64,000 bases of DNA from Bacteroidales bacterium. GTDB taxonomy: Bacteria; Bacteroidota; Bacteroidia; Bacteroidales; UBA932. The notes below the pieces were generated by a model, which searched no databases, was not told where the DNA came from, and worked only from the letters and a program-made list of their open reading frames with translations. The DNA is taken from the NCBI GenBank assembly GCA_017395045.1, contig JAFPWG010000004.1:1-64000 (forward strand), in the 5' to 3' direction. This document shows, in pieces, positions 325 to 60,275 of the stretch (position 1 is its first letter; each line of letters starts with the position of its first letter). Position numbers and translations under genes: made by a program.

Positions 325-332
325 CAAAGATA
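325..332 (-). promoter_or_regulatory. -7 promoter box of tsaE
   Basis: On the minus strand this reads TATCTTTG, a perfect match to the Bacteroidetes -7 consensus TAnnTTTG. Seven bases separate it from the tsaE ATG, so the expected transcription start falls at or next to the start codon. Confidence 0.7.
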
Positions 333-2000: not shown

Positions 2001-2840
2001 TTACCGGCGCCAGAGGGCGAACAGGGCCGAACCGCTGCCGGACATGGCCGCATACGAGGCCCCGCGGTCGTAGAACGACTGCTTGATTTCCGCGAGGGCG
2101 GGGAATTTTGCGAACACGGTGGTCTCGAAGTCGTTCACGAGGAGATCCTTCCATTCGGAAACCGGCCTGGCAAGCACTTCCCGCAGCGGCAGGGCGGGCT
2201 CTTTCGGAACGATGCCCCGGTAGGCGTCGGCCGTGGACACGGCGATGCCTTCGGGAACCGTCACTTCCAGCCGGTACTCCGACAGGTCGATATCAAAAGG
2301 CTCCAGGATCTCTCCCCGGCCGGTGCCCAGCATCGGGCGGTTGTAGACGAATACGGCGCAGTCGCTTCCGAGGCGGGCGGCGAGGGCAGCCAGCTCTCCG
2401 TCGGACAGGGCCAACCCTCCCAGTTCGGCCATGGTCCGCAGGGCGAAAGCCGCGTCGGCGCTGCCGCCGCCGAGGCCCGCCCCCACGGGAGAAGTCTTTT
2501 CGAGATAGATCTTCATCGGCGGCAGGTCATACCGCTCCGCCAGCAGGAAATAGGCCCGGGTCGTGAGGCCTTTCATCGGGTCCCAGTCCACACCTTCCTT
2601 CCGGGCGAGGGTGACCATCAGCTTTCCGTCCGGTGAGATGCCCTGGGCCATCTGCGCTGCGGAATAGGTCTCCTGCAGATGGGCGGAAGTGCGGCTGTAG
2701 TCGTCTCCGGTAATGATTTCCAGAGTGTCGGAGAATCCGGTGAAGGGCACGAACAGGGTCTCCAGGTCGTGGTAGCCGTCTTCGCGGCGCCGCAGGACGT
2801 GGAGGCCAAGGTTGAGTTTGACGTTCGGGCGGGTGATCAT
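2001..2840 (-). CDS. ispE: 4-diphosphocytidyl-2-C-methyl-D-erythritol kinase
   Basis: IspE phosphorylates CDP-methylerythritol in the MEP (non-mevalonate) isoprenoid pathway in the cytosol. The 279-residue protein has the family N-terminus with the conserved Asn, Lys and Asn (MITRPNVKLNLGLHV), the DGYHDLET motif at 21-28, and the GHMP-kinase ATP loop PVGAGLGGGSADA at 118-130. Because the conserved N-terminal strand begins right after the first Met, the ATG at 2840 cannot be moved. That ATG lies only 5 nt after a perfect TATCTTTG box, implying a leaderless message. The next enzyme but one of the pathway, ispF, is at 30991. Confidence 0.96.
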   Translation of the reverse strand: MITRPNVKLNLGLHVLRRREDGYHDLETLFVPFTGFSDTLEIITGDDYSRTSAHLQETYSAAQMAQGISPDGKLMVTLARKEGVDWDPMKGLTTRAYFLLAERYDLPPMKIYLEKTSPVGAGLGGGSADAAFALRTMAELGGLALSDGELAALAARLGSDCAVFVYNRPMLGTGRGEILEPFDIDLSEYRLEVTVPEGIAVSTADAYRGIVPKEPALPLREVLARPVSEWKDLLVNDFETTVFAKFPALAEIKQSFYDRGASYAAMSGSGSALFALWRR

Positions 2841-2845
2841 ACCCG

Positions 2846-2853
2846 CAAAGATA
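2846..2853 (-). promoter_or_regulatory. -7 promoter box of ispE
   Basis: TATCTTTG on the minus strand, ending 5 nt before an ATG whose position is fixed by the IspE N-terminal motif. It is the best anchor in the window for leaderless transcription. Confidence 0.75.
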
Positions 2854-13966: not shown

Positions 13967-13974
13967 TATCTTTG
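13967..13974 (+). promoter_or_regulatory. -7 promoter box of feoAB
   Basis: TATCTTTG, with TTGA at 13944-13947 spaced 19 bp upstream, inside the left arm of the hairpin. The feoAB ATG follows 20 nt later. Confidence 0.65.
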
Positions 13975-13994: not shown

Positions 13995-16373
13995 ATGAAA
14001 CTGTCAGAACTGAAGACCGGTGAAAAAGCGGTCATCGTGCGGGTCCACGGCCACGGATCCTTCCGGAAACGGCTCATCGAGATGGGCTTCATCCAGGGGA
14101 AGGAAGTGACGGTCGTGCTGAATGCGCCCCTCAAGGACCCGATCGAATACGAGATCATCGGTTACAAGATATCCCTCCGCCGGGAAGAGGCGGAACAGAT
14201 CGAGGTGGTGAACGAAGCCGAGGCCCGCGAGGCCCTCGTGAGCGACGAGCACCTGCAAGGCCTCCCGGACGACATGGAGGAAAGCGAGCGCCTGGACAAG
14301 GCCCTTGCGCACCTGGCCGAAGAGAGGCACCACGTAATCCGCGTCGCCCTGGTGGGCAATCCGAACTGCGGGAAGACATCCCTTTTCAACATCGCGTCGG
14401 GCGCGCACGAGCACGTGGGCAACTACTCCGGCGTGACCGTGGATGCCAAGGAAGGCCATTTCAAGCATAAGGGATACGACATCACCTTGGTTGATCTTCC
14501 CGGAACCTACTCACTTTCAGCATATTCCCCAGAAGAGCTGTATGTGCGGAAGAATCTGGTCGATGCGATGCCGGACGTGGTCGTGAACGTGGTGGACGCC
14601 TCCAACATCGAGCGCAACCTGTACCTCACGACGCAGATCATCGACATGAACCTCCGGACCGTGATGGCCCTGAACATGTACGACGAACTGCAGCACAAGG
14701 GGGACAAGCTGGACACGGACCAGCTGGGACGCCTGCTGGGCGTACCGGTGTGTCCGACGGTAAGCCGCGACGGCCAGGGCATCCCGGAGCTGTTCGACAC
14801 GGTCATCAAGGTCTACGAACAGTCGGATCCGCAGCTCGCCCGCCACATCCACATCAACCACGGGACGGAGATCGAGAAGAGCATCCGGCGGATCCGGGAC
14901 CTGGTGGCGGAGAATGAATCCGTCCGCTCGAAATACTCCACCCGCTACCTGGCCATCAAATACCTGGAGAAGGACCGCGACATCGAGTCGATGATGGCGA
15001 AATTGCCGAACCGGGAGGCCCTGGAGGCGGCCCGGGAGGAGGAGACGGAGCGGATCGAAGCCTTCCTGGGGACCAACCCTGAAGCGGCCATCGTCGATGC
15101 CAAGTACGCCTTCATCCAGGGTGCCCTGTCGGAAACCTACGAAAAATACCGCGAGGAGCGTCCCCGCCGTACCTTCACCGACCGGATCGACGCCGTTGTC
15201 ACCAACAAATGGCTGGCTTTCCCGATTTTCATCGCCCTGCTTTGGCTCATCTTCTGGGCCACCTTCACCATCGGCCAGTATCCGATGGACTGGCTGGACT
15301 GGCTCGTCGGCAAGTTCGGCGAGTTTGTGGGCAACTTCATGAAGGAAGGCTGGCTGAAGGATCTGCTCGTGAACGGAATCATCGCCGGTGTGGGCAGCGT
15401 GCTGGTGTTCCTCCCGAACATCATGATCCTGTACCTGTTCATCTCCCTGATGGAAGACAGCGGCTACATGGCCCGTGCGGCCTTCATCGTGGACAAGCTC
15501 ATGCACCGGATCGGACTGCACGGCAAGTCGTTCATTCCCATGGTGATGGGCTTCGGCTGCAACGTGCCGGCCATCATGGCCACCCGCAGCATCGAGAGCC
15601 GGAAATCCCGCCTGATCACCATCGCCATCATCCCGTTCATGTCCTGCGCGGGACGGCTGCCCATCTTCGTGCTCTTTGCCGGGGCGTTCTTCCCGCATAA
15701 TGCGGCGACCGCCCTGCTGGGAATCTATTTGCTGGGCGTCATCCTCGCCATCCTGAGCGCCCGCGTCCTGCGGCACTTCGTCAAGGACGACGACCTCCCG
15801 TTCGTGATGGAACTGCCGCCCTACCGCGTCCCGACCGGAAAGGCCATCTGGCGACACACCTGGGAAAAGGGCAAGCAATACCTGGAGAAGATGGCGACCA
15901 CCATTTTCATGTTCTCCGTGGTCATCTGGTTCCTGGGCTACTTCCCGAGGAACGAGGAAAAAGGCCTGGCGTACCAGCAGGAGCATTCTTATATCGGCAT
16001 GCTGGGTAAGGCCGTGGAACCGGCCCTGGAGCCCCTTGGCTTCAACTGGAAGATGGACGTGGGCCTGCTGGCCGGCGTCGGAGCGAAGGAGTTGGTCGTG
16101 AGTACCCTGGGCGTGATGTATGCCGGGGATGAGGGTGCGGATGCCGATGAAAACGACACCGCCCTCCAGGCGGCGCTGAAGGGCGACATATCGCTGGCGG
16201 CTGCGGTAGCCTTTATGGTGTTCGTGCTGCTCTATTTCCCCTGCATAGCCACCTTCGTGGCCATCAAGAACGAGACGGGCAAGTGGCGCTGGGCCATCCT
16301 GTGCTGCCTGTACACGATGCTTGTCGCCTGGGTATTCGGCTTCGTGGCGTACAGGCTGGTACTGCTGCTCTAG
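13995..16373 (+). CDS. feoB: FeoA-FeoB fused ferrous iron transporter
   Basis: This 792-residue inner-membrane protein imports Fe(II) in a GTP-dependent way. Residues 1-75 are a complete FeoA (SH3-like) domain, MKLSELKTGEKA through the IGYKISLRREEA segment. The FeoB G-domain follows, with G1 loop GNPNCGKTS at 121-129 and the DLPGTYSLSAYSPEE switch. The C-terminal half holds the two Gate domains with about eight transmembrane helices, including SCAGRLPIFV with its conserved Cys. FeoA-FeoB fusion is known in Bacteroidetes. The ATG at 13995 is chosen because the FeoA domain begins there; the frame is open further upstream, across the promoter. The TAG stop interlocks with the apt stop on the other strand. 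Confidence 0.95.
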   Translation: MKLSELKTGEKAVIVRVHGHGSFRKRLIEMGFIQGKEVTVVLNAPLKDPIEYEIIGYKISLRREEAEQIEVVNEAEAREALVSDEHLQGLPDDMEESERLDKALAHLAEERHHVIRVALVGNPNCGKTSLFNIASGAHEHVGNYSGVTVDAKEGHFKHKGYDITLVDLPGTYSLSAYSPEELYVRKNLVDAMPDVVVNVVDASNIERNLYLTTQIIDMNLRTVMALNMYDELQHKGDKLDTDQLGRLLGVPVCPTVSRDGQGIPELFDTVIKVYEQSDPQLARHIHINHGTEIEKSIRRIRDLVAENESVRSKYSTRYLAIKYLEKDRDIESMMAKLPNREALEAAREEETERIEAFLGTNPEAAIVDAKYAFIQGALSETYEKYREERPRRTFTDRIDAVVTNKWLAFPIFIALLWLIFWATFTIGQYPMDWLDWLVGKFGEFVGNFMKEGWLKDLLVNGIIAGVGSVLVFLPNIMILYLFISLMEDSGYMARAAFIVDKLMHRIGLHGKSFIPMVMGFGCNVPAIMATRSIESRKSRLITIAIIPFMSCAGRLPIFVLFAGAFFPHNAATALLGIYLLGVILAILSARVLRHFVKDDDLPFVMELPPYRVPTGKAIWRHTWEKGKQYLEKMATTIFMFSVVIWFLGYFPRNEEKGLAYQQEHSYIGMLGKAVEPALEPLGFNWKMDVGLLAGVGAKELVVSTLGVMYAGDEGADADENDTALQAALKGDISLAAAVAFMVFVLLYFPCIATFVAIKNETGKWRWAILCCLYTMLVAWVFGFVAYRLVLLL

Positions 16374-16942
16374 TTCTCCGTCACGTGGATGAGGGACTTC
16401 ACCGGCGCGAGGTCTTCGATGACCGAGCGGCCGGGGAGGTCGTCGATCTCCACCAGGAAGACGAAGTCGGTGACTTTGATCCGGTACTCCTTCCCGTCCT
16501 TGACGACTCTCTGCGCGTTGAGGCTCTCCACGATGCCGCGGGCCGTGCCTCCGGTGGCGAGGATGTCGTCGAAGAATGTGATGGGGATCGTGTCCCCTTC
16601 AGGCTTTCCGGCGGCGAGGTCGCTCAAGCGGTAGAACACCTGGTCCTTCCCGTACTCTTTGACGATGTCCACGGTAACGAGGTCTCCCTCCGAGAAAGGC
16701 AGCTTGCCCTTCTTGCGGATGGGGATGACGTTCTCCGCCATCCCGTTGTACAGGAGCGGAGCCGTGAACAGGAAGCCGCGGGCCTCGGGGGCGACGATGT
16801 TCGGCGAGATGCAGGCTGAGCCGATGTCGTCGATCAGGCGCTTGAAAACCTCCTTGTCCTGGAGGAAGGGGATGATATCCACGAAATTGACCCCGTGGAT
16901 GGGGAAGTTCGGATAGAACTTCAGTACTTCCTTGTAGTCCAT
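16370..16942 (-). CDS. apt: adenine phosphoribosyltransferase
   Basis: Apt salvages adenine to AMP using PRPP. The 190-residue protein has the PRPP-binding signature FFDDILATGGTARG, the adenine-pocket segment VAPEARGFLF, and IPIRKKGKLP, where family members have the RK(P/K)GKLP loop. Its ATG lies within one base of the stop of the hemerythrin-LuxR gene upstream (shared base 16942), so the two are almost certainly one transcript. Its stop shares the tetranucleotide CTAG with the convergent feoAB stop. Why a purine-salvage enzyme is coupled to a redox or gas-sensing regulator is unclear. Confidence 0.93.
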   Translation of the reverse strand: MDYKEVLKFYPNFPIHGVNFVDIIPFLQDKEVFKRLIDDIGSACISPNIVAPEARGFLFTAPLLYNGMAENVIPIRKKGKLPFSEGDLVTVDIVKEYGKDQVFYRLSDLAAGKPEGDTIPITFFDDILATGGTARGIVESLNAQRVVKDGKEYRIKVTDFVFLVEIDDLPGRSVIEDLAPVKSLIHVTEN

Positions 16943-17877
16943 TATTCTACGGTGTTGATGTCGATGAGGTTGTTCAGGAGCGCATAGACCGTAAGTCCGG
17001 CGACCGTCTTGATGCCCGTCTTGCGGGTGATGTTCTTGCGGTGGGTGATGACCGTGTGGATGGAGATGTTCTCCACATCGGCGATTTCCTTGTTCAGCAT
17101 GCCCTTGGCCACGCAAACGAGGATTTCCTTCTCGCGGGCGGAGAGTTCCTCTTTCTCCTCGCGTTCCGGCTCCCAGCGGGTTTCCAGGGCCGTGTGCATC
17201 TTGCGGTTGACGATGGGGACCAGGATGCCGTCTTCGACCAGGATATGCTTGGCCAGGTCCTCCTGCAGGGTGAAGATGCGGGAAAGGGCCCGATACACGT
17301 CCTGCTGCCCGCATTCGGGCGGCATGTATTTCATGACCAGGTTCTTGAGGTCCTCCAGCTTCTCCTCCACGTGGGAGTGGTTCTCGCCGTATTCGTCGGG
17401 GGCGAAACGGTCGTGGTGAAGCGCGGCCTCCGCCTGCGGGAACACGGTTTCCTCTTCATATTCCAGGTGCTTGAACAGCTCGTCCTTGTATTCCGAGAAG
17501 AATCTCCGGATGATGCTCCGGTGCTTTTCGCCGCAGGGCTCCGTCAGGCTCACCAGGGCGGCCGACAGGTCCTTCATCGCCACGTCCATATAGTATGCGT
17601 GGGACAGCCGGAGGTACTTCAGGACGTCCTTGAGGCTCGCCTTCCGGATCCGGTCCTTAGGGGGAAGGTAACCGTCGAAGGCATGGACGCTGCAGATCAG
17701 GAGGAAGGTTTCCGGGTCGATGTCGTGGCGCGAGCAGACGTCTTCCACGGTCGCATCGCCGAAACCGAAGGGGATGCCCATCCGCGTCAGGACGCCGGTG
17801 AGGCTGAACCGCAGGTTCACGAGGTCCGCCATCTTCATGGACGGGGACAGGTGGGGAAGTTCGGTGATGGTACCCAT
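16942..17877 (-). CDS. hemerythrin-domain LuxR-type transcriptional regulator
   Basis: A 311-residue fusion. The middle (about 85-225) is a four-helix hemerythrin-like domain with candidate di-iron ligands His93, His137, Glu141, His167 or His169, His211 and Glu215; the spacing HxxxExxxxFP and HxxxExxxLVP is the HHE pattern. The C-terminus (245-308) is a LuxR/NarL helix-turn-helix, LSAREKEILVCVAKGMLNKEIA, with HTVITHRKNI as recognition helix. Residues 1-80 resemble the N-terminal region of ScdA/YtfE repair proteins only loosely. The family logic suggests direct sensing of oxygen, nitric oxide or iron by a DNA-binding protein. The start at ATG 17877 is 9 nt after the promoter box. A longer version would begin at a TTG inside the box and is rejected; Met14 or Met16 are alternatives. 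Confidence 0.85.
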   Translation of the reverse strand: MGTITELPHLSPSMKMADLVNLRFSLTGVLTRMGIPFGFGDATVEDVCSRHDIDPETFLLICSVHAFDGYLPPKDRIRKASLKDVLKYLRLSHAYYMDVAMKDLSAALVSLTEPCGEKHRSIIRRFFSEYKDELFKHLEYEEETVFPQAEAALHHDRFAPDEYGENHSHVEEKLEDLKNLVMKYMPPECGQQDVYRALSRIFTLQEDLAKHILVEDGILVPIVNRKMHTALETRWEPEREEKEELSAREKEILVCVAKGMLNKEIADVENISIHTVITHRKNITRKTGIKTVAGLTVYALLNNLIDINTVE

Positions 17878-17886
17878 AATGCATGG

Positions 17887-17894
17887 CAAAGTTA
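17887..17894 (-). promoter_or_regulatory. promoter of hemerythrin-LuxR/apt operon
   Basis: TAACTTTG on the minus strand with TTGG (complement of 17914-17917) 19 bp upstream. The box ends 9 nt before ATG 17877. Confidence 0.7.
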
Positions 17895-19254: not shown

Positions 19255-20580
19255 CTAACTATACTTCCTTGGAAAACGGAACATAATGGAAAGCGCGGCG
19301 AGAAGGCCCAGCGCGAAGGGGTAATAGAGGTAGCCCGTGATGGCGACGGCCGACACGCCGGCGAGACCGGAGGCCATCAGCATCTGCGCACCATAGGGGA
19401 TGATGCCCTGTACCAGGCAGGAAAAGGTGTCCAGGATGGAGGCCGTCTTGCGCGGGTCCAGGCCGAACCGCTCCGAAATGTTCTTTGCCAGCGGACCCAC
19501 GGTAATGATGGCGATGGTATTGTTGGCCGTGCAGAAGTTAACGAGCGAGACGAGGCCGGCGATGGAGAAATAGGCACCCCGCTTGCCGCGGATCCGCCGG
19601 GTGAGTCCGTCGATGATGAAGTCCAGGCCGCCGTTGTACCGGATGAGTTCCAGCATGCCGCCGGCCAGGAGGGACACGATGATGAGTTCGCCCATGGACC
19701 CGATGCCGTCGCCGATGGAAGCCATCCAGCCGATCCAGTCGTAAGCGCCTGTGCTCCAGCCGATGACGCCGTTCACAATGATGCCGATGGTCAGGACTGT
19801 GACCACGTTGACCCCGGCAAGGGCCAGGCCGATGACCAGCAGGTAGGGTACCAGGCCCAGCCACTGCACGGCTCCTGCGGCGGGCACGGCCTCCACTTTC
19901 AGTCCCAGGACCACATACAGCACCGTCACCAGAAGGGCGGCCGGTGCGGCGATCCACAGGTTCGCCCGGAACTTGTCCCGCATGGAGCAGCCCTGGCTCT
20001 TGGTGGCCGCCACCGTCGTGTCGGAGATGAACGAGAGGTTGTCCCCGAAGAAGGCTCCGCCGATGACCACGGCCGTGATGAAAGGAATGCCGATCCCGGT
20101 CTCCTGCGCGATGCCGGCCGCGATGGGGACCAGCGCCACGATCGTACCCACGCTGGTGCCGATGGCCATTGAGATGAAGCACGCGGCCAGGAAAAGGCCC
20201 GCGTAGATGAGCTTTCCGGGCAGGATCCGCAGTGTCGCGTTGACCGTGGCGTCGATGGCTCCGATATCCTTCGCGGTCGCCGCGAACGCGCCCGCCAGCA
20301 CGAAGATCCAGATCATCAGGAGCACGTTCTTGTTCCCCGCCCCCTCCGAAAAGATGGAAATCTTGCTGTCGGTCTTGTCCACGCTCCGGGTGATGAGCAT
20401 CGCATAGGCCGACGCGATGATGAACGCCGCCGCGACCGGTACCTTGTAGAAGTCCCGCGCCACGAGGGAAGAGACCAGATACACGAGCAGGAACACCAGC
20501 AGCGGACTCAGGGCGAGCCAGCCGTTCATCTTGCGTCCCGCCGGAATCCGGTGCCTCGGTTTCTCGGTATTGATGGCCAT
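19255..20580 (-). CDS. nhaC: NhaC-family Na+/H+ antiporter
   Basis: A 441-residue inner-membrane protein with about eleven hydrophobic segments. The family signature is present in ISMAIGTSVGTIVALVPIA and the GGAFFGDNLSFISDTTVAAT region, typical of NhaC/ArsB-superfamily antiporters. It would exchange Na+ for protons, or possibly act on an organic substrate, since NhaC-like proteins vary. The ATG at 20580 lies only 4 nt after its -7 box. Either the mRNA is leaderless or translation begins at Met18, just before the first membrane helix. Confidence 0.9.
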   Translation of the reverse strand: MAINTEKPRHRIPAGRKMNGWLALSPLLVFLLVYLVSSLVARDFYKVPVAAAFIIASAYAMLITRSVDKTDSKISIFSEGAGNKNVLLMIWIFVLAGAFAATAKDIGAIDATVNATLRILPGKLIYAGLFLAACFISMAIGTSVGTIVALVPIAAGIAQETGIGIPFITAVVIGGAFFGDNLSFISDTTVAATKSQGCSMRDKFRANLWIAAPAALLVTVLYVVLGLKVEAVPAAGAVQWLGLVPYLLVIGLALAGVNVVTVLTIGIIVNGVIGWSTGAYDWIGWMASIGDGIGSMGELIIVSLLAGGMLELIRYNGGLDFIIDGLTRRIRGKRGAYFSIAGLVSLVNFCTANNTIAIITVGPLAKNISERFGLDPRKTASILDTFSCLVQGIIPYGAQMLMASGLAGVSAVAITGYLYYPFALGLLAALSIMFRFPRKYS

Positions 20581-20584
20581 GGCA

Positions 20585-20592
20585 CAAAGGTA
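20585..20592 (-). promoter_or_regulatory. -7 promoter box of nhaC-queH
   Basis: TACCTTTG on the minus strand, 4 nt before the nhaC ATG. It is divergent from the guaB promoter 43 bp away. Confidence 0.65.
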
Positions 20593-20635
20593 AGAAAAAA
20601 CTTCCAGCAGCCTTTTATCGGCAGGTAAAAATCAC

Positions 20636-20643
20636 TACCTTTG
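20636..20643 (+). promoter_or_regulatory. -7 promoter box of guaB-guaA
   Basis: TACCTTTG, 19 nt upstream of the guaB ATG and divergent from the nhaC promoter. Confidence 0.65.
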
Positions 20644-20659: not shown

Positions 20660-23714
<3,055 letters not shown>

Positions 23715-26918: not shown

Positions 26919-26926
26919 TACCTTTG
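26919..26926 (+). promoter_or_regulatory. promoter of the tRNA-Gln/tRNA-Met unit
   Basis: TACCTTTG with TTGC at 26897-26900, spacing 18 bp, 19 nt upstream of the mature 5' end of tRNA-Gln. Confidence 0.65.
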
Positions 26927-26945: not shown

Positions 26946-27016
26946 TGAGATATGGTGTAATGGTAGCACTACAGATTCTGGCTCTGTCAGTGAGGGTTCG
27001 AGTCCTTCTATCTCAA
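26946..27016 (+). tRNA. tRNA-Gln (anticodon CTG)
   Basis: Cloverleaf of 71 nt with a 7-bp acceptor stem TGAGATA/TATCTCA and D-arm TGGTGTAATGGTAGCAC. The anticodon stem ACAGA/TCTGT encloses TTCTGGC, so the anticodon is CTG. The T-arm is GAGGG/CCTTC, with loop TTCGAGT. CCA is not encoded. Confidence 0.93.
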
Positions 27017-30990: not shown

Positions 30991-31470
30991 TCAGGGTTTA
31001 ATCAGAAGCACGCTGGCCCACACCTCGCAGCCTTCGCACCGGCCCACGAACCCCAGGCGCTCGGTAGTCGTGGCCTTCACGGACACGGCATCGACGCCGG
31101 TGCCCATGACGCCGGCGAGCGTCTCCCGCATCGACGGGATATGGGGGGCCAGCTTCGGCCGCTGGAGGGCGATGGTGATGTCGGCGTTACCCACCTGCCA
31201 GCCTTTCCCGCGGACCAGGTCCACGACCTTCCCGAGAAGGACCTTGCTGTCGATTCCCTTCCACTCGTCGGAAGTGTCGGGGAAAAGATGGCCGATGTCC
31301 CCGAGGGCCAGGGCCCCGAGGAGGGCGTCGCAGAGCGCGTGGATGGCCACGTCGCCGTCCGAATGGGCCACGAAACCCGTTTCCGAAGGGATGCGCACGC
31401 CGCCCAGCCACATGGGCAGTCCGTCCGCGAGGGCGTGCACGTCATATCCGTTTCCGATTCTGATTTCCAT
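30991..31470 (-). CDS. ispF: 2-C-methyl-D-erythritol 2,4-cyclodiphosphate synthase
   Basis: IspF closes the cyclodiphosphate ring in the MEP isoprenoid pathway. The 159-residue protein has zinc ligands Asp10 and His12 in GYDVHAL and His44 in HSDGDVAIHALCDALLGA, and the GDIGHLFPDTSDEWKG loop. The start is fixed by the conserved DVH motif at residues 10-12. The ATG is 5 nt after the promoter box TATATTTG, implying a leaderless message like that of ispE. Confidence 0.97.
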   Translation of the reverse strand: MEIRIGNGYDVHALADGLPMWLGGVRIPSETGFVAHSDGDVAIHALCDALLGALALGDIGHLFPDTSDEWKGIDSKVLLGKVVDLVRGKGWQVGNADITIALQRPKLAPHIPSMRETLAGVMGTGVDAVSVKATTTERLGFVGRCEGCEVWASVLLIKP

Positions 31471-31475
31471 AGCCG

Positions 31476-31483
31476 CAAATATA
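31476..31483 (-). promoter_or_regulatory. -7 promoter box of ispF
   Basis: TATATTTG on the minus strand, 5 nt before the ispF ATG. It faces away from the plus-strand box at 31496-31503. Confidence 0.7.
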
Positions 31484-31495
31484 ACGAAAAATGAT

Positions 31496-31503
31496 TAAAT
31501 TTG
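31496..31503 (+). promoter_or_regulatory. -7 promoter box of the mutL-rsmE run
   Basis: TAAATTTG, 26 nt upstream of the first gene of the plus-strand run that includes mutL. Confidence 0.6.
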
Positions 31504-39468: not shown

Positions 39469-39476
39469 TATCTTTG
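39469..39476 (+). promoter_or_regulatory. -7 promoter box of the phosphoesterase gene
   Basis: TATCTTTG, 7 nt before an ATG that is fixed by the metal-binding DSHG motif at residues 8-11. The transcript should be leaderless or nearly so. Confidence 0.7.
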
Positions 39477-39483
39477 CAGTATC

Positions 39484-39975
39484 ATGTACATCGGTCTCAT
39501 ATCGGATTCGCACGGCGTATTTTCGCCGGAATTCAAGGAGTTTCTGGAGCCTGTCGACGAGATCTGGCACGCCGGGGATTTCGGCGGGGGATTCACCACG
39601 GCGGCGGAAATCGCTGCGTTCAAGCCGCTCAAGGGCGTGATCGGCAACTGTGACGACCGCCGGCTCATCTTCGACCATCCGGCCTACCGCTACTGGAAAT
39701 GCGAAGGACTGTGGATCCTGATGACGCATATCGGCGGATCGCCGGGTCATTATTATCCCGAAGCGCGGAACCTGATCAAGCAGTATCGTCCCGACATTTT
39801 CGTCTGCGGGCATTCCCACATCCTGAAGGTGATGAATGATAACGCGGAAAAATTGTTGTATATCAATCCCGGAGCCTGCGGAAACCAGGGATGGCATGTG
39901 GTCAGGACGGCGCTCCGCTTTCACATTGATAGCGGGAAGCTGCACGATATGGAGGTATTCGAACTGAATCGTTAA
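39484..39975 (+). CDS. YfcE/MJ0936-family metallophosphodiesterase
   Basis: 163 residues with all five calcineurin-type metal motifs in order: SDSHG (residues 7-11), HAGDFG, GNCDD, THIGG and CGHSH. This small family hydrolyses phosphodiesters with two metal ions, and its physiological substrate is usually unknown. The ATG at 39484 is right because the first motif follows at once. It is divergent from the large M64 lipoprotein gene, sharing a symmetric promoter region. Confidence 0.92.
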   Translation: MYIGLISDSHGVFSPEFKEFLEPVDEIWHAGDFGGGFTTAAEIAAFKPLKGVIGNCDDRRLIFDHPAYRYWKCEGLWILMTHIGGSPGHYYPEARNLIKQYRPDIFVCGHSHILKVMNDNAEKLLYINPGACGNQGWHVVRTALRFHIDSGKLHDMEVFELNR

Positions 39976-41752: not shown

Positions 41753-42429
41753 GCATAACCATGAAACAGGTGAACCGGGTCCTGTTCCCGATCCTGATCC
41801 TGATTGCGGGCATCCTGGTCCTGACCCGCCCGAAGGCCTTTTCGAAGGAGGAGCGGATGATTATCCGCCAGTCCGACTCCGTGATGTATGTGACCGTGTG
41901 GCCGGCAGACAGCGCCGTCTTGCGGACTCCCTGCATGGACCTCACGAAGACGGAGCTTAAATCCAAGGACTTAAAGACTTTGACGGCCAAGATGCTGGTC
42001 ACCTTGCGTGCTCCGCAGCACGACGGTGTGGGCATCGCCGCCCCGCAGGTGGGCGTAAGCAAGCGCATCATCTGGGTCCAGCGGCTGGATAAGGAAGGCG
42101 GCCCCTTCGAGTGCTACCTGAACCCGCACATCGACAGTCTCTTCGGAGCGGTGGGCAAGGGGCCCGAAGGCTGCCTTTCCGTGCCGCCGATGCGGGGCCT
42201 CGTGCAGCGCCGCGCTTCTGTCATTCTTTCTTATATCCATCCGGAAACGCTTGAGGCCAAGTGCGATACGGTCCATGGCTACACGGCCGTCATCTTCCAG
42301 CACGAGTGCGATCATCTGGACGGCGTCCTGTACATCGACAAGGCCGACACCGTGTATGTCTCCCCTTCCTGGGAGGCGGAGCGCAAATCGTACGATTATT
42401 CCCGTCCGGACTGGTGGCCGCTTCCTTAG
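41749..42429 (+). CDS. def: peptide deformylase with N-terminal membrane anchor
   Basis: 226 residues. The deformylase domain has all three motifs: GVGIAAPQVG (93-102), EGCLSVP (140-146, Cys142) and HECDH (185-189), so metal binding and catalysis look intact. Before it, residues 8-25 form a hydrophobic segment after a short basic start (MKQVNRVLFPILILIAGILVL), a membrane anchor or uncleaved signal. That is unusual for an enzyme that removes formyl groups from nascent chains at the ribosome. If the anchor has its C-terminus outside, the domain would be periplasmic. It is translationally coupled to radA. A start at the second Met, 41761, is equally likely. Confidence 0.88.
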   Translation: MSITMKQVNRVLFPILILIAGILVLTRPKAFSKEERMIIRQSDSVMYVTVWPADSAVLRTPCMDLTKTELKSKDLKTLTAKMLVTLRAPQHDGVGIAAPQVGVSKRIIWVQRLDKEGGPFECYLNPHIDSLFGAVGKGPEGCLSVPPMRGLVQRRASVILSYIHPETLEAKCDTVHGYTAVIFQHECDHLDGVLYIDKADTVYVSPSWEAERKSYDYSRPDWWPLP

Positions 42430-43295
42430 AGGGCCTTTCCCTGCCAGGTGCCGCGCTCGGCGAGACGGCGGTCGAGCAGGCGTGAAAACTCCGAAGCCTT
42501 GACGCCCCAGCCGGGAACGGCGAGATAGCGGGGCGGAACGCTGGCGGCGAGACGTCCGACGGCGATGCCGGGGCGCAGCCGTTCCAGGATGTCGCAGAGC
42601 AGGTCGATGTATCCGTCCAGCGTCCAGCGGACGAAATCGCCCGGCCGGGCGGCGAATTCCGCCGCCATCGGTGTCCCTTTCAGAAGTTGCAGTTGGTGGA
42701 ATTTGACGCTCTCCAAGGGGAGGGCGTTGATCTTTTCCACATCTTCGAGCAGGGTTTCCCGCGTTTCGCCCGGAAGCCCCAGGATGAAGTGTCCGCACAC
42801 GGGAATGCCCCGTGCCGCGGTTTCCCGGACGGCCCGTTCCGCGCAGGCGGAATCGTGCCCGCGACGGACCCGCAGCAGCGTTTCATCCCGGAACGACTCG
42901 ATTCCGTATTCCATCCGGGCGCATCCCAGGGAAGCGATGTAGTCCAGTTTTTCCGCATCCACGCAGTCCGGCCTCGTGCCGATGACGAGGCCCTCCACCG
43001 CCGGATGGGCCAGCGCCTCCCCATAGGCTTCCTTCAGGCGCGCGAGAGACGCGTACGTGTTCGAATAGGATTGGAAATAAGCCAGGTACGGACCGCCGGT
43101 CCGCCCCCGCGCCGCGTGGAACGCGATCCCTTCGTCGATCTGTTGCCGGATGCTTTTGTCGGAGGTACTGTAGGCGGGATGGAAGGCGGCGTTGTCACAG
43201 AAAGTACACCGGCCCGGGCACGAGAACCCCGCGTCCAGCACGAGCTTCAGTCCCGGCTCCCGGGCTGCTTGATACCGTTTCCCGTTCCACTCCAT
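42426..43295 (-). CDS. TIGR01212/YhcC-family radical SAM protein
   Basis: 289 residues. The cluster motif CX3CX2C appears as CPGRCTFC within DAGFSCPGRCTFCDN. SAM-contact motifs GTRPDC, YGIESF and GHFILGLPGET follow. This is the pattern of the YhcC group (TIGR01212), whose reaction is unknown. The ATG at 43295 is taken because it precedes the radical-SAM domain by about 20 residues and follows a promoter-like TTACTTTG by 4 nt. The frame is open far upstream but overlaps the divergent transporter gene. Its stop interlocks with that of the deformylase gene. Confidence 0.88.
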   Translation of the reverse strand: MEWNGKRYQAAREPGLKLVLDAGFSCPGRCTFCDNAAFHPAYSTSDKSIRQQIDEGIAFHAARGRTGGPYLAYFQSYSNTYASLARLKEAYGEALAHPAVEGLVIGTRPDCVDAEKLDYIASLGCARMEYGIESFRDETLLRVRRGHDSACAERAVRETAARGIPVCGHFILGLPGETRETLLEDVEKINALPLESVKFHQLQLLKGTPMAAEFAARPGDFVRWTLDGYIDLLCDILERLRPGIAVGRLAASVPPRYLAVPGWGVKASEFSRLLDRRLAERGTWQGKAL

Positions 43296-43299
43296 ACGG

Positions 43300-43307
43300 C
43301 AAAGTAA
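43300..43307 (-). promoter_or_regulatory. -7-like box of radical SAM gene (one mismatch)
   Basis: TTACTTTG on the minus strand (A at position 2 replaced), 4 nt before the ATG. The spacing matches the other near-leaderless promoters. Confidence 0.4.
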
Positions 43308-43370
43308 AATAATATTTTTATATTTGTAAAGAGAAGCCGTCGTGGAAGCATAACGGACCGTCTTTTTTTG

Positions 43371-43378
43371 TATCTTTG
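43371..43378 (+). promoter_or_regulatory. -7 promoter box of the AspT-like transporter
   Basis: TATCTTTG, ending 8 nt before the ATG at 43387. Confidence 0.65.
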
Positions 43379-43386
43379 CGGCCGAT

Positions 43387-45072
43387 ATGCTGAACCTGCT
43401 TACCCAAAGAGATACCGCCGGGGCCATTTTCATCCTGGCTATCGCCATAGCTTCCGGCCTATACCTGGCCAAATTCAAAGTAAAGGGGATTTCCCTCGGA
43501 ACTACCTGGATCCTGTTCATGGGCATCCTTCTGGGCCATCTGGGCCTGCGGATCAATCCGATGGTCCTGTCGTTCATCAAGGACTTCGGCCTGATCCTGT
43601 TCGTGTTCGCCATCGGCCTGCAGGTGGGCCCGGGATTCTTCCATTCCTTCCGCAAGGACGGCCTGCCCATGAACCTGCTTTCGATGGGACTGGTGCTTCT
43701 GGCCGTGATCACCGCGTATGTGATCCATCTGGTCAGCGGAGAGAACCTGGGCATCATGACCGGCATCATGTCCGGCGCCGTCACGAACACGCCCGGCCTG
43801 GGCGCTGCGCAGCAGACGCTTTCGGACGCCGTGTCCGTGTCCGGCGAAAACGCCGCCCAGATTGCGGACGCGACCTACGGGATCGCTTCGGGCTATGCCG
43901 TCGCCTATCCCTTGGGCGTTCTGGGCGCCATCGCAGTCCTGCTGTTCTGCAAGGCTCTTTTCAAGGTGAACATCGACAAGGAGAAAGAAAAGGCGTCGCA
44001 GGACGACGACGAGGAAGGCAGCGCCTACCGGCTGGTGTGCAAGGTGGAGAATCCTGCCCTCTTCGGCAAGACCGTGCATGACATCGTGGGCGAAGAAAAC
44101 CCGGACCATCTGGTCATCGCCCGGATGAAACGTGCCGGCAAGGTTTTCTTCCCGGACTTGGACCTGCCGCTTCAGGAAGGGGATAAACTGCTGATCGTCA
44201 CCGATGTACAGCATAAGGAGAAAGCACGCATCATCTTCGGCGAAGAACTGCCGGTGAACATGGAAGAGTGGCGGCCGAAGGGTACGAAGCTCGTGGCCAG
44301 CCGCCTGTCCATCACCAAATCCTCCATTACCGGAAAAAGCCTTCGCAAACTGGACGTCCGCCGCAAGTACGGCGTCACGGTTACGCGCATCCTGCGCTCG
44401 GGCGTGGAGCTGCAGGCCGACGCCGACCTGATCCTCCAGGTGGGCGACAGCATGAAAGTCGTCGGCTCCGAGGAAAGCATCGAGCGTCTCGCCCACCTCG
44501 TGGGCAATGAGCCTGAAACCCTGCACAAGCCCAACCTGCTGCCGATTTTCTTCGGCATCGCGCTGGGCGTGCTGGTGGGCACGCTTCCCATCCGCTTCCC
44601 GTCCATGCCCCAGCCGCTCAAGCTCGGCCTCGCCGGAGGCCCCCTGATCGTGGCCATCCTGCTCGGGCACTTCGGTCCGAAGCTCCGGATTACCACTTAC
44701 ACGGCCCTCAGTGCGAACCTGATGATCCGGGAGATCGGGATCTCGCTCTTCATGGCCGCCGTCGGACTCGGCGCAGGAAAGACCTTCGTGTCGTCCCTGG
44801 TGAGCGGAGGATACATGTGGGTGCTCTACGGAGCGATCATCACCCTGATTCCGATGACCGTCATCGCCCTGCTTGCCCGCTATGCCTTCAAGATGGACTT
44901 CTTCAAGATCTGCGGCCTTCTCGCCGGCGGGACCACCGACCCGGCGCTCCTTTCCTTCACCGAGCAGATGTACGGCAGCGGACGCATCGCGGTCAACTAT
45001 GCAACGGTGTATCCCCTTACGATGTTCCTCCGGGTTGTTGCCGCCCAAGTCATGATTATGATAATGTTATAA
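43387..45072 (+). CDS. AspT/YidE-type putative transporter with two RCK_C domains
   Basis: 561 residues. Two membrane halves of about five helices each (about 1-190 and 385-561) carry the duplicated AspT-like fold, including GIMSGAVTNTPGLGAAQ in the first and GLLAGGTTDPALLSF in the second. Between them lie two TrkA-C (RCK_C) regulatory domains (about 215-365). The family includes the aspartate:alanine exchanger AspT, but YidE/YbjL relatives have no proven substrate. The following lipoprotein gene starts 4 nt after its stop, suggesting one transcript. Confidence 0.9.
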   Translation: MLNLLTQRDTAGAIFILAIAIASGLYLAKFKVKGISLGTTWILFMGILLGHLGLRINPMVLSFIKDFGLILFVFAIGLQVGPGFFHSFRKDGLPMNLLSMGLVLLAVITAYVIHLVSGENLGIMTGIMSGAVTNTPGLGAAQQTLSDAVSVSGENAAQIADATYGIASGYAVAYPLGVLGAIAVLLFCKALFKVNIDKEKEKASQDDDEEGSAYRLVCKVENPALFGKTVHDIVGEENPDHLVIARMKRAGKVFFPDLDLPLQEGDKLLIVTDVQHKEKARIIFGEELPVNMEEWRPKGTKLVASRLSITKSSITGKSLRKLDVRRKYGVTVTRILRSGVELQADADLILQVGDSMKVVGSEESIERLAHLVGNEPETLHKPNLLPIFFGIALGVLVGTLPIRFPSMPQPLKLGLAGGPLIVAILLGHFGPKLRITTYTALSANLMIREIGISLFMAAVGLGAGKTFVSSLVSGGYMWVLYGAIITLIPMTVIALLARYAFKMDFFKICGLLAGGTTDPALLSFTEQMYGSGRIAVNYATVYPLTMFLRVVAAQVMIMIML

Positions 45073-50485: not shown

Positions 50486-51249
50486 TGCTCGAGAAAGTCT
50501 TTGGCGCGGGTGATCTGGTCGATGGAACCGGTCTCTTCCTTGCCGAGGGTGTAGTAAATCTTGATGAAGGCGGCGTCCTTGAGGAAGTCCACATGGCCCA
50601 CCTCCAGGTTGTCCACCTTGACGCCGATGCGTTTTTCCAGGTCGGCGATGAGTTCGGCCCGGCGCTCCGGGACGATGAGGTCGATCCGGTCGTACAGGAC
50701 CAGCTTGGTGGAAGTATGGTGCAGGAGTTTCTCGCTCTCCAGCACCCAGATCAAGGCCACGACCAGGAAATTCGACAGGACGGTAACCAGCAGGGCGCTC
50801 CCGTTCAAGGCATAATGCGGGGTGTCGGAAGTGGCTCCGACCACCCGGTACAGCGGCGCCAGGCCGTTCATGGCGGCGATGGCGATGATGACGAACAGGT
50901 AAGTCATCTCCCGGATGGGGACGGTTTCCGTCCGGTAGCGGATGACGCCGAAAATGGCGAACAGGCCGAGGGTCAGCCCCACGCCCACCTCCACGTTGCC
51001 CATGATGTACAGGAGCATGAGCATCGCGGTGGAGAACACCATGAATGTGAAGTAGTAGTCGCGGCGCCGGCTCTTCCGGTAGTAGAACAATCCGACGATG
51101 ACCCAGCACACCAGCAGGTTCAGGAAAAACCGGATCGCCAGTTCCGTGAGGCTTTGGGAGGTGGTCATCATCGCGTCCGTAATGGATTGGACGTCAAGGA
51201 AATTCTCATCGGCGAGATTGTATTCGTCAAGGTCTTGCATGGAGATCAT
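50482..51249 (-). CDS. DUF4956 inner-membrane protein
   Basis: 255 residues. There are four to five transmembrane helices between about residues 35 and 165, including the conserved GLTLGLFAIFGVIRYRTETVPIREMTY stretch, then a cytoplasmic alpha/beta domain resembling a ferredoxin-like or ACT fold (LIADLEKRIGVKVDNLEVGHVD). DUF4956 proteins are regularly found next to bacterial VTC polyphosphate-polymerase-like proteins. The ATG is fixed by its 4-bp overlap with the VTC stop. Confidence 0.88.
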   Translation of the reverse strand: MISMQDLDEYNLADENFLDVQSITDAMMTTSQSLTELAIRFFLNLLVCWVIVGLFYYRKSRRRDYYFTFMVFSTAMLMLLYIMGNVEVGVGLTLGLFAIFGVIRYRTETVPIREMTYLFVIIAIAAMNGLAPLYRVVGATSDTPHYALNGSALLVTVLSNFLVVALIWVLESEKLLHHTSTKLVLYDRIDLIVPERRAELIADLEKRIGVKVDNLEVGHVDFLKDAAFIKIYYTLGKEETGSIDQITRAKDFLEQ

Positions 51250-52043
51250 ACGACGGTGATTTTATGGTTGATCGTCTTTTCAATCTGGCGCACCTTCACC
51301 TTGAACCGGTTCGACCGGGCCGAAGGGTCGGTCAGGGTGACGGCGATGCAGTACTTGCTGATCCGGGCGGGCTTGACCCGGTGGTCCAGCAGGATGCGCT
51401 TCATCTCGCTGGCGGCATGTCCGTCCTGCTTGAGCTCGATGATCACGGCATCCCGCAAGGAGGTTTCCAGTCCGGTACGGAAGTTCCTGAATGTCAGGCC
51501 CGTGTCAATGGTGATCCGCTCCGTCAGGGCCGGGTTCACCAGGGTAATCCGCTGGAAGATGGTTTCCAGGGTTGGCAGGAGTTCCTGGGCCCGGAAGTCG
51601 GAATACTCCGCCAAATACCGGCAGGCGGCCGCGTCGCTTCGGAAGTCAGGCAGCTCCTGCAGGGGAATCCCGGTGCGCTTTTTCTTCGTTCGCCCCCGGT
51701 TGTTCTTCCGCTTGATTTCCAGGAAGGCGTCGCCGGAATTGACATAGGCCCGGGTCCGGACCTTTTGCCGACGGAGCCGCTTGTTGTGATGGTCGGAGAA
51801 CATCCGGAGACCTTCCGTGTCGTAATAGACCGAATCGTAGGGGCTGATGCGGGCCCCGTCGGCGACGAGGACCCGGTATCCGGCCTTCGCCACGTCCCGG
51901 AGGACTTCCAGCAACGTCGCCTCGTCCGTCAGGTATTTCGTGTCGATCCGGTTCATCAGCCGCACCGAATCCATTTCCGCGAGGGAGATGGGTGCGAGTG
52001 CGCCGAGCGGTCCGTCCAAGGGAATATGGGATTCCTCAGGCAT
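51246..52043 (-). CDS. VTC-domain protein (polyphosphate polymerase-like)
   Basis: 265 residues, almost entirely a VTC domain of the triphosphate-tunnel superfamily. Conserved features include MNRIDTKYL near the start, the basic run KRLRRQKVRTRAY, the EIKRKNNRGRTKKKRT tunnel strand and IIELKQDG. In yeast Vtc4 this domain makes polyphosphate from ATP; bacterial VTC proteins are thought to act similarly but few have been tested. ATG 52043 is preferred over an upstream TTG. It overlaps the gene before by 8 bp and DUF4956 by 4 bp. Confidence 0.88.
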   Translation of the reverse strand: MPEESHIPLDGPLGALAPISLAEMDSVRLMNRIDTKYLTDEATLLEVLRDVAKAGYRVLVADGARISPYDSVYYDTEGLRMFSDHHNKRLRRQKVRTRAYVNSGDAFLEIKRKNNRGRTKKKRTGIPLQELPDFRSDAAACRYLAEYSDFRAQELLPTLETIFQRITLVNPALTERITIDTGLTFRNFRTGLETSLRDAVIIELKQDGHAASEMKRILLDHRVKPARISKYCIAVTLTDPSARSNRFKVKVRQIEKTINHKITVV

Positions 52044-52455
52044 CTTCCGTAATGTATTCAAATACCTTGATTGTCAGGAGCTTCCCCTTGGCGTTGTAGT
52101 TGTATTGGGTTTTCTTGCGGCCGAACTCGTTGTACTCGAACTTCTTGACGGTGTTCAGCCGGTTCCGCTCGTCGTACACCGACTCCTTCACGCACTTGCT
52201 CTCGGCTCCGGGACCGTACTCGAAGCGCTTGCGCCATTTCTGGCCGTCGGAACCGTATTCGATTTCTTCGATCTTCTTGCCTTCGGGACTGTAAGTGGTG
52301 ATGTGGTCCAGGACCTTTTTCCCGGATTTGGGATCGGTGTTCCACTCCTTGATGACCAGGTTCTTCTTGTTGATCTTCTGGGTGGCCGTATTCTGGGCGC
52401 CCGCCGACAGGACGAAGGCGAGAGCAAAGGCGATCAGTGTCAGTAACTTTTTCAT
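52036..52455 (-). CDS. secreted protein with YD/Rhs-like repeats, unknown function
   Basis: 139 residues with a signal peptide (MKKLLTLIAFALAFVLSAGAQ). Repeated strand pairs follow, of the form YSPEGKKIEEIEYGSDG, YDERNRLNTVKKFEYNEFGRKKTQYNYNAKGKL. This is the YD-repeat rhythm seen in Rhs-type and YwqK-like proteins. There is no enzyme motif. It is the first gene of the operon containing VTC, DUF4956 and DUF2490, with a perfect promoter box 6 nt before its ATG. Confidence 0.78.
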   Translation of the reverse strand: MKKLLTLIAFALAFVLSAGAQNTATQKINKKNLVIKEWNTDPKSGKKVLDHITTYSPEGKKIEEIEYGSDGQKWRKRFEYGPGAESKCVKESVYDERNRLNTVKKFEYNEFGRKKTQYNYNAKGKLLTIKVFEYITEDA

Positions 52456-52461: not shown

Positions 52462-52469
52462 CAAATATA
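52462..52469 (-). promoter_or_regulatory. -7 promoter box of the VTC operon
   Basis: TATATTTG on the minus strand, ending 6 nt before the ATG at 52455 and lying in the 23-bp gap after the upstream lipoprotein gene. Confidence 0.68.
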
Positions 52470-54379: not shown

Positions 54380-54387
54380 TATTTTTG
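54380..54387 (+). promoter_or_regulatory. -7 promoter box of the LytS/LytTR operon
   Basis: TATTTTTG, matching TAnnTTTG, ending 7 nt before the kinase ATG at 54395. It is divergent from the carbohydrate-binding lipoprotein gene. Confidence 0.6.
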
Positions 54388-54394: not shown

Positions 54395-55489
54395 ATGAAA
54401 CGAATGGATCCGGAAAAGAAACAGGAGAGAGTCATCTATACCATCCTATGGGGCGTGGTTTTCATCCTTGTGCCGGTAGCGGCGACGTTCCAGTCTTTAT
54501 CCGGAGGGATGCCTTTCCGGCTGACGGAAGTCATCAACCTCTGGCTGGGCATCCTGCCGTTCTTCGTGTTGTTCCTCCTGCACGACCTGCTGGCTGCACC
54601 GTCACTGGTGGAGAAAGGGAAGCCCGCGGTCTATGCCGGGATTACCGTCGGGCTGGTCGTCCTGTTCGGAGTCTATGTCTGGATGTCCCGGCGGGGGCCT
54701 GGCCCGATGGGGCCGGACGGGCCGCCGATGGGGATGGGCATGCCGCCCTTTGACCGCAACAGGCCGGTTCCGATGGCACCGGAAGTGATGCGTTTTGCCC
54801 TGGGGCTGCTTGTGCTGGGGGTGAACCTGGGGGTAAAGTATTATCTGAAATCGGCCCGCAGCGAGCGCCGGATGAAGGAACTGCAGGCAGAGAACCAGGG
54901 CCGGCAGTTGGAAACCCTCCGCTACCAGATCAATCCGCATTTCTTCATGAACACCCTCAACAATATCCACGCGCTCGTGGACATCGATCCGGAACAGGCG
55001 AAGGCGAGCATCGAGGAGTTCTCGAAACTGATGCGGCACGTGCTGTATGAAGGAGACCGGCCGACCATCCCCCTCTCCAAGGAAGTGGAGTTTCTCCGCC
55101 ATTATGTTTCCCTGATGAAGCTGCGGTATGCCGATTCGGTCCGCATTGACCTGTCCTTGCCGGAGACGTGTGAAGGGGCGGAAATCCCGCCGCTTGTGCT
55201 GGCGTCGTTCGTGGAAAACGCCTTCAAGCACGGAATCAGCTATGAAAAGCCTTCGTTCGTGCGCGTATCCGTGTCCGTGGAGGAAGGGAAGGTCATTTTC
55301 CGGTGCGCCAACAGCCGGCAGGACTCCGCCCAGGTGCGGAGCCACGGCGTGGGCCTGGCGAATGTCCGGGGCAGGCTGGACCTGCTGTACGGCAACCGGT
55401 ATACGCTGCATATCGACCAGGGTGGAGACGTTTACGACATCCTCCTGCTGCTGCCGGCGACGGTGAACCTGGAAAAGGAGGGCCTATGA
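54395..55489 (+). CDS. LytS-type sensor histidine kinase
   Basis: 364 residues counting from a possible earlier ATG, 354-364 in practice; the start at 54395 follows the promoter box. Four transmembrane helices (about 15-30, 47-66, 79-97, 132-150) are followed by the His_kinase domain. Its phospho-acceptor is His182 in QINPHFFMNTLNNIHAL, and the ATPase motifs are VENAFKHGI and GVGLANVRGRL. The loop between helices 3 and 4 (about 99-129) is remarkably rich in Met, Pro and Gly (GPMGPDGPPMGMGMPPFD). It could bind soft metals such as copper or simply be flexible. The stop overlaps the response-regulator ATG. Confidence 0.92.
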   Translation: MKRMDPEKKQERVIYTILWGVVFILVPVAATFQSLSGGMPFRLTEVINLWLGILPFFVLFLLHDLLAAPSLVEKGKPAVYAGITVGLVVLFGVYVWMSRRGPGPMGPDGPPMGMGMPPFDRNRPVPMAPEVMRFALGLLVLGVNLGVKYYLKSARSERRMKELQAENQGRQLETLRYQINPHFFMNTLNNIHALVDIDPEQAKASIEEFSKLMRHVLYEGDRPTIPLSKEVEFLRHYVSLMKLRYADSVRIDLSLPETCEGAEIPPLVLASFVENAFKHGISYEKPSFVRVSVSVEEGKVIFRCANSRQDSAQVRSHGVGLANVRGRLDLLYGNRYTLHIDQGGDVYDILLLLPATVNLEKEGL

Positions 55490-57649: not shown

Positions 57650-57657
57650 CAAAGATA
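57650..57657 (-). promoter_or_regulatory. -7 promoter box of dacB
   Basis: TATCTTTG on the minus strand, 4 nt before ATG 57645. It is divergent from the galE box 11 bp away. Confidence 0.7.
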
Positions 57658-57668
57658 GGTTTTTTTCG

Positions 57669-57676
57669 TATCTTTG
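57669..57676 (+). promoter_or_regulatory. -7 promoter box of galE
   Basis: TATCTTTG, 21 nt upstream of the galE ATG. Confidence 0.68.
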
Positions 57677-57697: not shown

Positions 57698-58723
57698 ATG
57701 AAAAAGACTGTGCTTGTATCGGGCGGAGCGGGCTTTATCGGAAGCCACGTGACCGTGGAACTCATCGAGGCGGGCTACGACGTGGTGGTCGCCGACAATT
57801 TCTCCAACTGCGACCTTACCGGTTTCGAGGGGGTGCAGAAAATCATCGGCCGGGAGCTCCCCCTGGTCAGGATGGACTTCTGCGATGCGGAGGCCGTGAA
57901 GAAGATTTTCGCCGATTATCCCATCGATGCGGTCATCCATTTCGCCGCCTTCAAGGCCGTGGGAGAGTCCGTGGACAAGCCGCTGATGTACTACAAGAAC
58001 AACCTCCTGAGTTTCATCAACGTCCTGGAGGCCGCCCAGGAGAAGGGTGGTTGCAACGTGCTGTTCTCCTCTTCCGCCACCGTGTACGGTGAGCCGGACA
58101 AGGTTCCCGTCACCGAGCAGACCCCCCGCAAGCCGGCCATGTCGCCTTACGGCAACACCAAGACGATGTGCGAGGACATCCTCCGCGACACCGTGAAGGC
58201 CAGCGGAGGCGCCATCAAGGGCATCCTCCTCCGATACTTCAACCCCATCGGCGCACACCCGAGCGCCCTCATCGGCGAACTCCCCCGCGGCGTCCCCAAC
58301 AACCTCGTCCCGTACATCACCCAGACCGCCATCGGCAAGCGCGAGTGCCTGAGCATCTTCGGCGATGACTATCCCACCAAGGACGGTACCGGCCTGCGCG
58401 ACTTCATCGATGTCGTGGATCTCGCCAAGGCCCATGTCTTTGCCGTTACCCGGATGCTCGAAGGCAAGATGAAGCAGGACTGCGAGATCTTCAATATCGG
58501 CACCGGCACGCCCCTTTCCGTCATGGAACTGGTCAAGGCGTTCGAGAAAGTGAACGGCGTCAAGGTCAACTACCGCATCGCGCCCCGGCGTCCCGGAGAC
58601 ATCACCGCTATCTGGGCAGACCCGACCCTCGCGAACGAGGAAATGGGCTGGAAGGCCACCCGCACCATTGAGGAGACCCTCGCGGCCGCGTGGGCCTGGG
58701 AAAAGCATCTGGCGGGTAAGTAA
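57698..58723 (+). CDS. galE: UDP-glucose 4-epimerase
   Basis: GalE interconverts UDP-glucose and UDP-galactose using bound NAD, supplying galactose for surface glycans and allowing galactose use. The 341-residue extended short-chain dehydrogenase has the GGAGFIGSH nucleotide loop (9-17), the SSSATVYG segment and catalytic Tyr151 and Lys155 in YGNTK. The RYFNPIGAHPS substrate segment is characteristic of GalE. It stands alone, upstream of the ATP synthase operon, which has its own promoter. Confidence 0.96.
   Translation: MKKTVLVSGGAGFIGSHVTVELIEAGYDVVVADNFSNCDLTGFEGVQKIIGRELPLVRMDFCDAEAVKKIFADYPIDAVIHFAAFKAVGESVDKPLMYYKNNLLSFINVLEAAQEKGGCNVLFSSSATVYGEPDKVPVTEQTPRKPAMSPYGNTKTMCEDILRDTVKASGGAIKGILLRYFNPIGAHPSALIGELPRGVPNNLVPYITQTAIGKRECLSIFGDDYPTKDGTGLRDFIDVVDLAKAHVFAVTRMLEGKMKQDCEIFNIGTGTPLSVMELVKAFEKVNGVKVNYRIAPRRPGDITAIWADPTLANEEMGWKATRTIEETLAAAWAWEKHLAGK

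Positions 58724-58727: not shown

Positions 58728-60275
<1,548 letters not shown>

Follow-up and report, generated by a model that had tools for sequence, protein, structure and literature searches.

The 64,000-nucleotide stretch analysed here (the window: positions 1 to 64,000 of contig JAFPWG010000004.1 of a Bacteroidales genome of 2.67 Mb in 42 contigs, 96% complete) raises the question of where a message begins when its promoter element lies almost on the start codon. A sequence-only reading had placed a TAnnTTTG box, the form of the −7 element of Bacteroidota primary-sigma promoters, 4-9 nt before the ATG of eleven genes, and had proposed transcripts that start at or beside the ATG. All eleven boxes, ten of them exact and one (at a radical SAM gene) with a single mismatch, were found in place when the sequence was rechecked, with a distance d between the end of the box and the start codon of 4-9 nt in every case; the exact pattern occurs 27 times in the window, compared with a mean of 9.2 and a maximum of 18 in 100 shuffles. 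Our results indicate, with a probability of roughly 0.83 for the explanation as a whole, that these are −7 elements of the ordinary Bacteroidota primary-sigma kind and that the same promoter drives two leader classes, of 0-6 nt and of about 11 nt or more. They suggest that about a quarter of the recognisable promoters would make messages without a leader, or nearly so.

Spacing of boxes and start codons

Genes were called in 40 stretches of 20 kb and in the window, together 864 of 2671 kb or about a third of the genome, using a caller written for the analysis that relies on a coding score only and ignores upstream signals. Of 678 genes called, the counts use the 641 that combined a closed start with 120 nt of upstream sequence; in the main counts, the start was the most upstream ATG scoring no more than 6 units below the best. 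The boxes form two peaks, with 44 at d=4-10, none at d=11-14 and 92 at d=15-30. One box stands at d=15 and 126 genes have a box at d=16-60, whereas only 1 of the 45 close boxes, at d=3, is nearer to the start than 4 nt. The expectation that a distance count would rise above that in shuffled upstream regions was borne out in this third of the genome: in 200 dinucleotide-shuffled versions of the final 40 nt, boxes at d=4-10 averaged 2.1 and numbered at most 7, the reversed box occurs there once before called starts, and the empty zone behind the close peak holds none of the approximately 24 boxes predicted from the flanking densities.

The two peaks are not peculiar to one start rule, since cut-offs of 2-10 units gave 38-44 boxes at d=4-10 and 0-1 at d=11-14. 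They also appear when no gene model is used: counting TAHHTTTG to any ATG that opens at least 80 codons, or a frame that runs off the stretch, gave 54 at 4-10 nt, 4 at 11-14 and 109 at 16-26, compared with 5, 2 and 8 for the reversed box. Over the entire genome, the most frequent box variant is followed at 4-10 nt by ATG 77 times, at 11-15 nt 18 times and at 18-24 nt 78 times. These counts confirm that boxes occur at the close spacing beyond chance and that an empty zone separates the two peaks.

The proposal that two promoter classes coexist holds for the placements, but the boxes are better described as one promoter, since the box and the AT pattern upstream of it are much alike in the two classes; the AT content 6-10 nt upstream of the box is 0.83 and 0.78, respectively. 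G is absent from both free positions in the eight commonest box variants of the genome. TATCTTTG is about twofold commoner among close boxes (23/45 versus 31/121 leadered, p 0.003), and on the basis of this excess the close boxes may be the stronger promoters.

Close and distant boxes in the window

Within the window, TATCTTTG precedes tsaE (start at 317; box 325..332, minus strand, d=7) and ispE (2001-2840; box 2846..2853, minus strand, d=5), as well as a phosphoesterase gene (39484-39975; box 39469..39476, plus strand, d=7), an AspT-like carrier gene (43387-45072; box 43371..43378, plus strand, d=8) and dacB (56173-57645; box 57650..57657, minus strand, d=4). The AspT-like gene has a second box, TATATTTG, at 43319..43326 on the same strand, 60 nt from the same ATG, from which a leadered start is possible. 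TATATTTG is also the close box of ispF (30991-31470; box 31476..31483, d=5) and of the first gene of the VTC operon (52036-52455; box 52462..52469, d=6), both on the minus strand. The minus-strand nhaC-like gene (19255-20580) has TACCTTTG at 20585..20592 (d=4), and a LytS-like kinase gene (54395-55489) has TATTTTTG at 54380..54387 on the plus strand (d=7); the caller's strict rule placed the starts of the kinase and dacB at 54404 and 57600, respectively. The one-mismatch box, TTACTTTG, lies at 43300..43307 on the minus strand, 4 nt from the ATG at 43295 of the radical SAM gene (42426-43295). The remaining box, TAACTTTG (17887..17894, minus strand), ends 9 nt before a gene (16942-17877) that encodes a hemerythrin oxygen-binding domain and a LuxR-type DNA-binding domain in one protein, which is possibly, judging by its domains, an oxygen-sensing regulator.

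Pfam matches agree with the names tsaE, ispF, hemerythrin-LuxR, Na/H antiporter, metallophosphoesterase and radical SAM, and with those of the AspT-type carrier, the LytS-kind histidine kinase and dacB (Peptidase_S13); IspE is recognised as a GHMP kinase only. The 139-residue product of the gene that opens the VTC operon had no Pfam match, the VTC domain, which is linked to polyphosphate, being in the product of the next gene (region 51246-52455).

More distant boxes, all on the plus strand, precede guaB (20663-22141; box 20636..20643, 19 nt), a gene encoding fused FeoA and FeoB (feoAB, 13995-16373; box 13967..13974, 20 nt), a galE-like gene (57698-58723; box 57669..57676, 21 nt), a gene at 58764-60275 (box 58733..58740, 23 nt) and a gene starting at 31530 (box 31496..31503, 26 nt). 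The gene at 58764 had been labelled atpD and is, by Pfam, that of a V/A-type ATPase subunit. Leaders of 19-27 nt had been proposed for such genes; these numbers stand as box-to-ATG distances, while the leaders themselves are predicted to be about 4-5 nt shorter. Three divergent pairs join a close box to a leadered one, i.e. nhaC/guaB (20585-20643), ispF with the gene at 31530 (31476-31503) and dacB/galE (57650-57676).

Predicted transcript starts and the empty zone

In excerpts of the published Flavobacterium maps, the box spans −12 to −5, i.e. it ends 4-5 nt before the transcription start (PMC6847099, PMC9723704). By that spacing, a box whose end lies 4 nt upstream of the ATG would make the A of the AUG the first transcribed base, and the near edge of the close peak, at d=4, matches it. 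The base before the ATG is a pyrimidine in all 21 genes of this genome with d≤6 (one d=3 case included) compared with 87 of 127 leadered genes (Fisher p 0.001); pooling two related genomes (G126 and G033, described below) gives 42/46 and 135/208, respectively. Such a pyrimidine fits a pyrimidine-purine transcription initiator placed at the AUG. The start at or beside the ATG, predicted from the Flavobacterium spacing, agrees with the near edge and the pyrimidine at the nearest boxes, whereas genes with d=7-10 probably retain a leader of 2-6 nt, because the preceding pyrimidine is special only at d≤6. The start codon is ATG in 45/45 close-box genes, although it is also that of 622 of the 641 genes, and the rule for choosing starts is biased towards it.

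With respect to mechanism, we propose that RNA polymerase starts about 5 nt past the box, such that d=4-6 would place the start on or beside the A of the AUG and d=7-10 would leave a leader of roughly 2-6 nt. For leaderless and near-leaderless messages, translation would depend on recognising an AUG at or near the 5' end, whereas leadered messages would need about 11-12 nt or more upstream in order that an A-rich stretch at −11 to −14 is transcribed. In this genome, leadered genes have a high A content at −11 to −15 (A 0.44-0.62); an excerpt on F. johnsoniae reports A-richness at −14 to −11, with A at −12 and −13 accompanying high translation and bS1 proposed to bind (PMC6847099). The second peak begins at d=15-16, corresponding to a leader of about 11-12 nt, which about reaches the A-rich stretch. 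From this onset and the position of the stretch, we infer that a length of about 7-10 nt falls short of what the A-rich mode needs and exceeds what initiation at a 5' AUG allows; suiting neither mode, such leaders would be selected against, leaving the empty zone.

The genome encodes bS21 and a multi-domain S1 protein, and an explanation based on the ribosome was set aside with both present; a search for the tail of 16S rRNA says little, the pattern being seen in 2 of 41 genomes (one of them in the genus, with a normal anti-Shine-Dalgarno sequence) and not in this genome.

Relatives and rival explanations

Comparison with relatives reveals that the spacing recurs where the box is kept. Among 30 ispE loci (the best of 61 genomes, our own included), all nine boxed loci have the box at 4-5 nt and 21 have none, while five of 30 phosphoesterase loci (own included) are boxed, at 5-7 nt, and 25 are not. 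For IspF, the best 80 matches among named records, which are Bacteroidales or Bacteroidia metagenome-assembled genomes, many from rumen or gut, and include, towards the distant end, three Candidatus Cryptobacteroides records, have the nearest box at d=4 (2 loci), 5 (14) or 7 (6), at none of 8-15 and at 16-31 (22); 36 have no box within 60 nt. The start was extrapolated at ten IspF loci where the match began after residue 1, so that an error of one or two codons is possible; all four of these loci that have a box are in the 16-31 nt group. These counts, from loci that are not independent by descent, imply that IspF orthologues use either placement.

Numbers of boxes at d=4-10, 11-14 and 15-30 were 22/1/33 in a genome of the same genus (G126), 12/0/21 in one of the same class and another order (G033), and 51/0/58 in the pooled IspF loci. 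The close share of boxed genes is 45/172 (26%) in the genome studied here, 22/70 in G126 (62.5% GC), 3/34 in a second member of the genus, G101 (42.5% GC), 5/77 in G145 (36% GC) and 12/46 in G033; the share of 53/123 in the pooled IspF loci represents a single gene neighbourhood repeated. In 31 of the 37 genomes of the genus, the pattern density at 4-10 nt is above that at 11-15 nt, and use of the close class varies several-fold among the genus genomes G099-G134.

GC content, estimated from no more than 3.4-7.4 kb of each genome, was considered as a driver. Among 37 genus genomes (own included), GC correlates positively with the per-Mb excess of the 4-10 nt pattern (Spearman 0.74) and with the close share relative to the 18-24 nt pattern (Spearman 0.56). 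We do not claim such a role, the link being weak in contrasts on an IspE tree (30 genomes, 29 contrasts), with r 0.22, p 0.15, and r 0.24, p 0.12 after background subtraction.

A close box might instead be a translation signal, or a chance occurrence, with transcription beginning further upstream, and there is some room for this at tsaE, ispE and the VTC operon, which lie 16-23 nt behind a codirectional gene such that read-through is possible, and at the AspT-like gene with its second box 60 nt upstream. Chance, however, explains only about 2 of the 44 boxes, the box variants and the AT-rich upstream profile are similar in both classes, and 32 of the 45 close-box genes are transcribed divergently from the adjacent gene, for which they probably require a promoter of their own. 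In addition, TACCTTTG occurs 19 nt upstream of a tRNA gene (26946-27016; box 26919..26926, plus strand), the RNA of which is untranslated, which favours a promoter role for the box that does not depend on translation; overall, we regard a role other than that of a promoter as improbable. Slightly less credible still is that the close box is an alternative promoter for a minor leaderless transcript, most of the protein coming from a leadered one. The AspT-like gene does bear both kinds of box, and genes with both leadered and leaderless starts are described in an excerpt on Haloferax (PMC4983044), but the other ten window genes have no second exact box within 120 nt of the ATG, a search that did not extend to inexact boxes or another consensus.

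Equally hard to sustain is the possibility that the box-adjacent ATG is not the true start, which would lie downstream of it and make the messages normally leadered. Another start codon lies within 6 codons in 11 of 45 close-box genes (19/127 leadered), and the strict rule took a later start for the LytS-like kinase and dacB. Nevertheless, wrongly chosen leftmost ATGs should fall at d=11-14 about as often as at d=4-10, and none does; codon-position G+C in close-box genes resembles that of leadered genes from codon 2 onward, both at codons 2-6 and at codons 7-11. The starts of ispE, ispF and the phosphoesterase gene had been held to be fixed by conserved residues, and in the relatives compared the motifs of all three proteins indeed begin within the first dozen residues.

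Several observations weigh against one primary-sigma promoter with two leader classes. The starts come from our own gene caller on 864 of 2671 kb, and the strictest rule, which takes the best-scoring start, gives 30 boxes at d=4-10 and two at d=11-14. At d=7-10 the pyrimidine before the ATG is unremarkable (24/33 in three genomes). TTTG near −33 is scarce in both classes (6/45 close and 23/121 leadered with spacers of 15-25), and it is also weak in the published data on F. johnsoniae. The AT-rich G145, of the same order, lacks a clear gap (5/3/27), and G101 has only three close boxes, with none at d=11-14. Of 98 further genomes from the phylum, 57 have a higher density of the single-box pattern at 4-10 nt than at 11-15 nt and 40 a lower one, with a ratio of 1.09; a large close class throughout the phylum is not supported by this raw pattern, and we suspect that AT-rich backgrounds blur the signal. 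As judged from these genomes, a large, putatively leaderless class is a trait of some lineages and not of the whole phylum.

On balance, we lean towards a broader proposal for this phylum, which lacks Shine-Dalgarno pairing: that it has two discrete modes of start recognition with a leader of about 7-10 nt forbidden between them, that genes switch mode when the box moves, and that some lineages of the genus have expanded the leaderless mode to at least a quarter of recognisable promoters. For Bacteroidota ribosomes, which find start codons without Shine-Dalgarno pairing, a two-class design with an empty zone would give a sharp rule for the shortest leader that works and for the longest one compatible with initiation at a 5' AUG. 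The spacing rule may also be a simple aid in start-codon annotation and in designing expression parts for gut Bacteroidales.

Comparison with known systems

Leaderless messages are already known in the phylum, at low frequency in mapped data. In excerpts of the published maps, 13% of leaders are ≤10 nt in F. johnsoniae and 5.5% of genes are leaderless in F. psychrophilum (PMC6847099, PMC9723704), while 3.7% of leaders are under 10 nt in B. thetaiotaomicron (PMC7366714). The close share here (26% of boxed genes) exceeds these figures of 3.7-13%, which count genes with mapped starts and hence have a different denominator. As far as those excerpts go, the boxes here are the same as the −7 element of sigma-ABfr, the Bacteroidota primary sigma factor, including the lack of G at the free positions of the commonest variants, as in F. 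johnsoniae (PMC6847099, PMC9723704); what differs from mapped Bacteroidota promoters is that a quarter of boxed genes have the box 3-10 nt before the ATG.

Surveys have addressed such genes by other means. One states that leaderless genes have been reported as frequent in the phylum, on the basis of missing ribosome-binding motifs (PMC5397173), and another counts genes without a ribosome-binding site (PMC4535381); these surveys use missing Shine-Dalgarno sequences or mean base bias, whereas box-to-ATG spacing is used here, and the shares from mapped transcription starts are, in the portions compared, much lower than the predicted ones. A third survey, as excerpted, lists Bacteroidetes with many 'atypical' genes and concedes that it may miss leaderless genes whose signals are not of the Pribnow type (PMC3160421). 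Among the matches listed from the open-licence literature, none reported two-peak box spacing with an empty zone, or switching between orthologues, in Bacteroidota.

The TA-led leaderless genes of Actinobacteria and Deinococcus-Thermus, which the same excerpt puts at more than 20% of genes, carry their promoter box some 10-12 bp upstream of the start codon (PMC3160421). The position is similar to that of the close boxes, but the TA-led element is a Pribnow-like TANNNT about 12 bp upstream, whereas that studied here is the Bacteroidota TAnnTTTG. In Haloferax, the leaderless class defined by mapped starts covers 0-5 nt, with few transcripts having 6 or more extra nucleotides, according to the excerpt available (PMC4983044). 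That cut-off is similar to the one predicted for the close class here, although haloarchaea differ in using archaeal promoters and in that leaderless transcripts are the majority, at 72% (PMC4983044).
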